A stretch of 64,000 bases of DNA from Synechococcus sp. CBW1108 (GTDB lineage: Bacteria; Cyanobacteriota; Cyanobacteriia; PCC-6307; Cyanobiaceae), in assembly GCF_015840335.1 (NCBI RefSeq), contig NZ_CP060395.1, positions 1,649,277 to 1,713,276 of the forward strand, written 5' to 3'. Of this stretch, positions 8,487 through 8,533 are shown piece after piece. Numbering within the stretch: position 1 is the stretch's first letter; every line of letters starts with the position of its first letter. The notes beneath the pieces were generated by a model. The model did no database searches and was not told the origin of the DNA. It saw only the letters and a list, made by a program, of their open reading frames with translations. Both the position numbers and the translations under genes were made by a program.

Positions 8487-8533
8487 GCGGTTTCCTAAAC
8501 CGTAGGTCGTGGGTTCGAGTCCCGCCAGCCCCG
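8487..8533 (+). pseudogene. tRNA-Arg(CCT) 3' fragment, probable attachment site
   Basis: A tRNA 3' half is plain: anticodon stem GCGGT/ACCGT (8487-8491, 8499-8503) with loop TTCCTAA and anticodon CCT (8494-8496), variable AGGTC, T arm GTGGG-TTCGAGT-CCCGC (8509-8525), acceptor strand CAGCCCC (8526-8532) and discriminator G. The partner GGGGCTG and the D arm are absent upstream, so the gene is incomplete and cannot work. This is the expected product of integration into the 3' end of a tRNA gene, with the rebuilt tRNA at the other end of the element. Confidence 0.8.

Follow-up and report, generated by a model that had tools for sequence, protein, structure and literature searches.

The 47 nt at positions 8488-8534 of the DNA analysed here are, with near certainty, the right attachment site (attR) of a 62,444-bp integrative element in the chromosome of Synechococcus sp. 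CBW1108, and on balance we favour, with modest confidence, the reading that this is a large satellite-like element which forms capsids, depends on tails from elsewhere, and carries defence cargo. The window, by which we mean the whole stretch of 64,000 nt that was analysed, corresponds to C1:1649277-1713276 of the 3.23-Mb single-contig genome (G000). The scar by itself is ordinary, and its value lies in delimiting the element to the base. Its assignment as attR follows from a tRNA repeat, a recombinase beside the intact tRNA, paired TAGGCAA repeats, empty sites in relatives, and the left end of the element in Microcystis elabens FACHB-917.

A search of the whole window with ARAGORN found no complete tRNA. 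When window 8440-8540 was compared with the own genome, one other match was obtained, at C1:1595320-1595372 on the plus strand (96%, E 1.2e-18), where ARAGORN calls a complete tRNA-Arg(CCT) at C1:1595292-1595365, left of the window, as the preliminary description of this DNA had anticipated. Other matches to tRNA-Arg(CCT) in the genome are weaker than these two places. Read base by base, the two copies are exactly identical over 47 nt, namely the last 46 bases of the intact tRNA (window 8488-8533) and the next T; they lie on the same strand, and the distance between their starts is 62,444 bp. The repeat begins at the second base of the anticodon stem's 5' strand and runs through the CCT loop, the T arm, and the 3' acceptor strand, with the discriminator G at 8533 and the T at 8534, and the tRNA 5' half is missing from the scar. 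The preliminary description was thus right to see a 3' half that lacks its 5' half, but its coordinates (8487-8533) start one base too far left, since base 8487 is G in the scar and A in the tRNA. An 84-nt tRNA-Gly(TCC) that may be spurious was also called by ARAGORN inside the element (C1:1648130-1648213). The right end of the element comprises the following features:

8488-8534, plus strand: attR core, a 47-nt exact repeat in which 8488-8533 are the tRNA-Arg(CCT) 3' end, the 5' half being absent
8432-8450, plus strand: TAGGCAA-N5-TAGGCAA pair, presumed arm-type integrase site of the right end, one of three such pairs in the genome
1-8487, no strand assigned: right arm of the 62,444-bp element, continuing left of base 1 to C1:1595320, located between the att copies and missing from empty sites

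The tyrosine recombinase that had been predicted beside the complete tRNA is present as well. It is a 379-aa tyrosine recombinase-family integrase (C1:1595509-1596648) that starts 144 bp downstream of the intact tRNA and has a weak match to phage integrases (phrog_1, E 6.1e-8) and no match in Pfam. The R, K, R-H, H, and Y positions, which we take to be the catalytic residues of the recombinase, are invariant in 15 aligned integrases; the integrase tree likewise has 15 rows, L229 being left out as shorter than 300 residues. A 100-aa gene without a Pfam match is convergent with the integrase (L003:11636-11935, minus strand), and small genes are similarly placed beside related integrases, making it a possible candidate excisionase. 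The motif TAGGCAA-N5-TAGGCAA occurs exactly three times in the whole genome (3.2 Mb), always on one strand, and the same pattern read backwards occurs nowhere in it. Two of these pairs lie 41 bp apart between the intact tRNA and the integrase, and the third lies just left of the scar. The pair was also observed beside the tRNA-Arg integrases of relatives and beside the integrases of L135 and L137, and it is absent from the loci of the Leu/Met clade (L138-L146).

Based on the known mechanism of tyrosine recombinase-family integrases, the host tRNA would have been split within the anticodon arm on integration, the element's own 3' half would have rebuilt the tRNA at the left end, and the host's original 3' half would have been displaced to window 8488. 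The paired TAGGCAA repeats fit the role of arm-type sites in such a reaction. Where the repeated core starts, the anticodon stem supplies an inverted repeat (ACGGT/ACCGT), and this would in turn fit core-type sites.

The tRNA search covered 60 genomes including the own one, from which the best 30 loci were taken, 29 of them from relatives. The relatives identified by name are Cyanobium sp. Cruz-8D1, Microcystis elabens FACHB-917, Synechococcus sp. CS-1325, and two MAGs, which would suggest a picocyanobacterium of freshwater type. In 23 of these 29 relatives the site is empty, with the match to a 110-aa gene (start at window 9180) beginning 78-244 bp past the tRNA. The gene was not found in G015, G033, G003, G009, G004, and G020, where 0.9-1.5 kb past the tRNA was searched; inserts follow the tRNA in G015, G004 (about 4 kb), and G020 (about 2.2 kb). 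The two genes right of the scar are:

8567-9097, plus strand: cytochrome b561-like gene, located beyond the scar and lineage-specific; of the genomes examined, only G000 and G015 have it here
9180-9512, plus strand: 110-aa gene that, by match position, lies directly right of the tRNA in 23 of 29 relatives

The preliminary description had drawn a boundary between phage-like and core genes at the scar and expected empty sites with the b561 gene (its own name for it) directly after the tRNA. The island indeed ends at the scar and empty sites exist, but the b561 gene occurs in 0 of the 23, and its membership of the ancestral site was therefore rejected. In nine relatives' loci with a homologue of this gene, ARAGORN found no tRNA within the examined stretch; the gene sits elsewhere in the other relatives looked at.

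The central claim, that the truncated tRNA is the scar of tRNA-targeted integration, has held: an intact tRNA on the left, a 62.4-kb island in between, a recombinase beside the tRNA, and empty sites were all found. Moreover, the relatives examined included neither a complete tRNA-Arg(CCT) elsewhere with no island in between nor any that carry all genes of window 1-8533 at the same place with an intact tRNA where the scar lies here. Partial tRNA copies do exist in genomes, and one could suppose that the 3' half is a decayed tRNA duplicate unrelated to integration. This is refuted by the exact repeat at the island end, the integrase at the opposite end, the paired repeats at both ends, and the 23 of 29 empty sites, and the probability that we leave to it is minimal.

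Several relatives carry parts of the element. In M. elabens FACHB-917 (L228), the same tRNA adjoins the element's left end, which is 91.4% identical over 5.8 kb, whereas the flanking chromosome is 75% and 80% identical, which indicates that the element moved horizontally; the contig ends within the element, and the integrase, called as two ORFs, may be broken. G008 contains the DNA of both Fic-like genes of the right arm at 90% identity, followed by a similar, mutated tRNA 3' half, and the DNA flanking this half differs from the flank in the own genome. In G015, whose flanks are 96-98% identical, an intact tRNA is followed by 2.1 kb of remnant DNA that retains scraps of the integrase region, then by an eroded scar of 35 nt and the b561 gene. 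The b561 gene probably arrived here before the split of G000 and G015, and G015 has probably lost most of the element.

Related integrases lie beside different tRNAs. Relatives at about 79% identity or more adjoin a complete tRNA-Arg(CCT) in L131, L134, L136, L149, and L152, and L132/L225 starts too close to the contig end for its tRNA neighbour to be judged (L225-L229 are loci already counted as G284, G139, G181, G314, and G143 and are not independent). A 64% identical integrase adjoins tRNA-Ser(TGA), and integrases at 51-57% identity, along with a 63% fragment (L146), adjoin tRNA-Leu(TAA) or tRNA-Met(CAT). The tRNA type follows the tree branches only partly, as L140 (Met) and L137 (Leu) do not group with the remaining Met and Leu rows. 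In L133/L226, an 86% identical integrase lies beside a tRNA-Arg 3' half without a 5' half on a 4.5-kb contig, an arrangement that could be an assembly effect or else point to a circular form or to insertion in tandem. The tRNA-Arg(CCT) element of G181 (L237) and the tRNA-Met element of G212 (L238) have a GAM/RAD52 module near the integrase with a gene of about 930 aa in between, a layout unlike that of the window's element. An element with the head module in G012 has an integrase only 27% identical to that of the present element, beside tRNA-Arg(TCT). Across the family, 283 of 300 genomes match the integrase somewhere, many at about 29-36%, and the own genome encodes a 34% identical tyrosine recombinase at C1:45008-46123, a type that may be a core recombinase, separate from the integrases of the elements.

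A tRNA target, an adjacent tyrosine recombinase, a length of 4-200 kb, and large variable cargo are also the features given for tycheposons, first described in Prochlorococcus (PMC10872708), and the element has all of them. It could thus be a cargo-carrying, tRNA-targeted genomic island of this type in which the head genes are passengers. We regard this as improbable because across copies it is the head genes that recur and the cargo that varies; furthermore, among the matches listed, integrases of at least 50% identity occur only in genomes of at least 2.1 Mb, whereas genomes of 1.6-1.8 Mb have a recombinase at about 30% identity. The recurring head module sets the element apart from tycheposons as described in PMC10872708. 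Similarly, the picocyanobacterial integrase family outlined in PMC10187409 shares with the element a tyrosine integrase near tRNA genes and variable islands, but by description it is associated with tRNA-Phe and tRNA-Cys instead of tRNA-Arg(CCT).

The part of the element within the window encodes the following genes (gene starts are approximate):

1087-2223, plus strand: element gene of 378 aa, no PHROG or Pfam match
2891-3739, minus strand: Rad52/22-family annealing protein (PF04098, E 4e-41; phrog_26464, E 3.6e-22)
3845-4468, minus strand: Mu Gam-like / Siphovirus Gp157 protein (phrog_253, E 1.6e-23; PF05565, E 4.2e-21)
4537-4983, minus strand: YspA/YAcAr SLOG-like protein (PF10686, E 9.5e-6, below the curated cut-off)
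5698-6996, plus strand: second Fic-like protein, 432 aa by this start (phrog_5978, E 1.1e-53)
7023-8195, minus strand: Fic-like protein, 390 aa, start uncertain, 8222 possible (phrog_5978, E 1.2e-86, function unknown)

The name Fic for the 7023-8195 protein is our assumption from a motif of the HPFxDGNGR type. A homologue of the SLOG-like protein adjoins GAM/RAD52 in related elements.

The head genes and the Dpd-like and BrxL cargo lie mostly left of the window, beyond the view of the preliminary description. The left arm contains the integrase, a BRO-N protein (PF02498), a Gp2.5-like SSB, a VRR-NUC protein, a helicase, and a primase, and an exonuclease-like protein with a weak match (E 7.8e-4) is also found in this arm. 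The same arm further encodes a large terminase (phrog_38, E 9.5e-86), a sigma-like protein, a portal (phrog_145, E 2.3e-31), a scaffold (phrog_206), a major head protein (phrog_212, E 3.9e-66), a decoration-like protein, and a second sigma-like protein. The decoration-like gene (roughly 141 aa, C1:1618704-1619126) was recovered by tblastn here and in G061. A small terminase, an HNH nuclease, and a head maturation protease were not recognized in the PHROG scans and could be too divergent. The cargo comprises BrxL (E 4e-281) and an A+T-richer Dpd-like block at C1:1626615-1645200 (L005 1616-20000), the BrxL-Dpd block measuring about 22 kb. Encoded in the Dpd-like block are QueD (PTPS), DpdA (E 1.2e-121), NurA-like and HerA-like proteins, UvrD, PDDEXK, QueC, a second TGT-family protein, and two DEAD helicases, whereas QueE is our own reading of the sequence and not a scan result. 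DpdB was not among the PADLOC matches listed for the ten proteins scanned. The gene set of the cluster is unusual, and possibly it represents a variant 7-deazaguanine defence system. The N-terminal stretch of DpdA weakly matches DpdC/DUF6884.

The nearest capsid in the phage collection is that of the siphophage P-SS2 (44.8% identity), with those of Paenibacillus phages and other cyanophages next; a weak PDB match to capsid entry 3j4u was also obtained. A T7-like podovirus origin of the head genes, the first guess from the PHROG set, was rejected given this nearest capsid. Matches to the capsid protein (E 0.001 or better) were obtained in 57 of 300 family genomes, seven of which have short or weak matches alone (E above 1e-30) and one of which (G161) is distant. 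Up to seven matches occur per genome and three in the own one, where the two further capsid-neighbourhood copies (C1:2960972 and 3010612 regions, L113-L117) contain several 545-aa ORFs that we would guess resemble transposase copies. In another genus the capsid is found at 100% protein identity within a neighbourhood that is 93.7% identical over 3.6 kb.

The family set was assembled from 30 genomic copies in 20 genomes, hand-picked for long contigs, and 33 IMG/VR loci (35 were found, two at 29% identity being dropped from the census), with the capsid gene cut in L200 and L211. A capsid gene was called in 61 loci, of which 58 have the decoration-like cluster (G000 and G061 being added by tblastn), 55 the HeH-like cluster, 45 the scaffold, and 28 the portal, many stretches ending before the portal. 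The capsid gene is followed by four small genes or a fibre-like set, which may include a collagen-like protein, and then by opposite-strand genes or cargo. Same-strand genes of at least 500 aa after the capsid are few and comprise cluster 72 (649-669 aa), with PHROG matches of unknown function alone, and cargo-like genes, some of which were scanned. As judged from comparisons with the own copy, the head genes are under constraint: the median pN/pS is 0.36 for the capsid (59 comparisons), 0.36 for the terminase (11), 0.46 for the scaffold (22), and 0.54 for the portal (27), values that are rough and probably too high because synonymous sites seem to be near saturation.

No tail module was recognized by homology in the 30 genomic copies and the 33 IMG/VR loci that share the head module, some of the latter extending under 4 kb past the capsid gene. 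Among the island ORFs scanned, a set that excludes the BRO gene and most of the cargo, none has a PHROG tail match. Although the P-SS2 genome is annotated with tape measures, fibres, and further tail genes, neither its tape measure gp077 nor 11 further genes of its tail/fibre region matches the window's element. Of 101 loci over 5 kb, the P-SS2 capsid probe matches 66 and the P-SS2 scaffold 37, whereas gp077 matches a single one (L233, from G161). L233 has a capsid of about 30% identity and, on the same strand and no more than about 12 kb away, a PF10145 match with long genes around it. As the 11 other genes matched none of the 101 loci, L233 included, gp077 is the sole validated tail probe. 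PF10145 exceeds the cut-off in 3 of 300 family genomes; it was found in none of 34 IMG/VR records (the L183 record left out) and is absent from G000.

Fuller relatives differ from the own copy in the genes after the capsid. Their collagen-like protein gives PHROG tail fiber matches, one fibre-like gene shares a domain with the P-SS2 structural protein gp087, and 23 relatives have a gene similar to P-SS2 gp098, whose annotation notes a similarity to a putative lysozyme. The own copy has neither the fibre genes nor the gp098-like gene and may thus be partly decayed, and proteins of an unfamiliar short tail could hide among the fibre-like genes of the relatives. Structure models of two candidate neck proteins were compared as well. 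For gene 22 there was no support (best Z 4.7, among unrelated folds). Gene 23 was modelled from the relative L194 because it is shorter in the own copy; the model was poor (pLDDT 60.6), only its LysM domain matched well, and its connector-type rows (Z 4.4) were tied with unrelated folds.

These data bear directly on whether the element is instead a temperate cyanophage, intact or decayed, with a P-SS2-related head and a tail too divergent to be seen or deleted, in which case the scar would be an ordinary prophage attR. P-SS2 is a siphovirus with lysogeny-type genes and a tRNA-matching attachment site (PMC2784084), and the element family shares with it the capsid, the scaffold, one structural domain, and the gp098-like gene. 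Moreover, P-SS2-like islands of Synechococcus RS9917, which have RAD52 genes and are located next to tRNAs, were described earlier as relic prophages (PMC2784084). The P-SS2 capsid gene is annotated as similar to RS9917_04023, and these islands may belong to the element family. The absence of the fibre and gp098-like genes from the own copy would also suit a decaying prophage. On the other hand, no tail was recognized throughout the family set even though the head genes are constrained, and a P-SS2-type tape measure is detectable by the same probe where it is present (L233). We therefore consider a prophage a serious but rather unlikely explanation.

The satellite-like reading that we favour is suggested by the gene content, which combines replication genes of the element's own, its own head and packaging genes, and no recognized tail. 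Such a capsid-forming satellite would replicate and package itself whenever tails and lysis are provided by a tailed cyanophage, and it would carry defence systems between picocyanobacteria. A length of 62 kb is large for a satellite and counts against this reading. The way of working would resemble that of cf-PICIs, which also combine an integrase with their own capsid, portal, and terminase and lack a tail as described in PMC10690885. The element differs from cf-PICIs in its scaffolded P-SS2-related capsid, its length of 62 kb, its very large defence cargo, and its picocyanobacterial host, and in that no maturation protease, HNH, or small terminase was recognized. As the likeness is one of description and several cf-PICI genes were not recognized, neither membership nor common descent is claimed. 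A literature search over titles and abstract openings retrieved no description of tail-less capsid-encoding cyanobacterial elements, from which we do not claim their absence from print.

What makes the element worth pursuing is that its family keeps virus-head genes without recognized tails and that its capsid protein has a match in 57 of 300 sampled genomes of the host family. If P-SS2-like islands are satellites, this would provide a testable explanation for both the reported lack of identifiable cyanobacterial prophages and the spread of cyanobacterial defence systems. Since the att sites are defined and share a 47-bp core, excision can be measured by a simple junction PCR. A wider claim, which we advance tentatively and hold to be somewhat short of an even chance, is that a widespread picocyanobacterial lineage of large capsid-forming satellites of P-SS2-like cyanophages exists, which originated independently of cf-PICIs, uses exchangeable integrases to enter different tRNAs, and is a main vehicle by which whole defence systems (BREX, DISARM-like, type I R-M, and Dpd) move between species and genera.

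Exchangeable defence genes are likewise known from the hotspots of antiviral systems in P2 phages and P4 satellites (PMC9122126), from which the present family differs in its BREX-, type I R-M-, DISARM-, and Dpd-like genes and in being cyanobacterial. In other copies, nine long proteins encoded downstream of the head module were surveyed with PADLOC. PglX and PglZ were found in G004 (where a homologue of BrxL is present too), type I restriction or modification proteins in G138 and G308, DISARM DrmMI/type IIG-like proteins in G138 and G109, an MkoA-like protein in G195, and DUF499 in L181, and the protein from G174 matched TPR alone.
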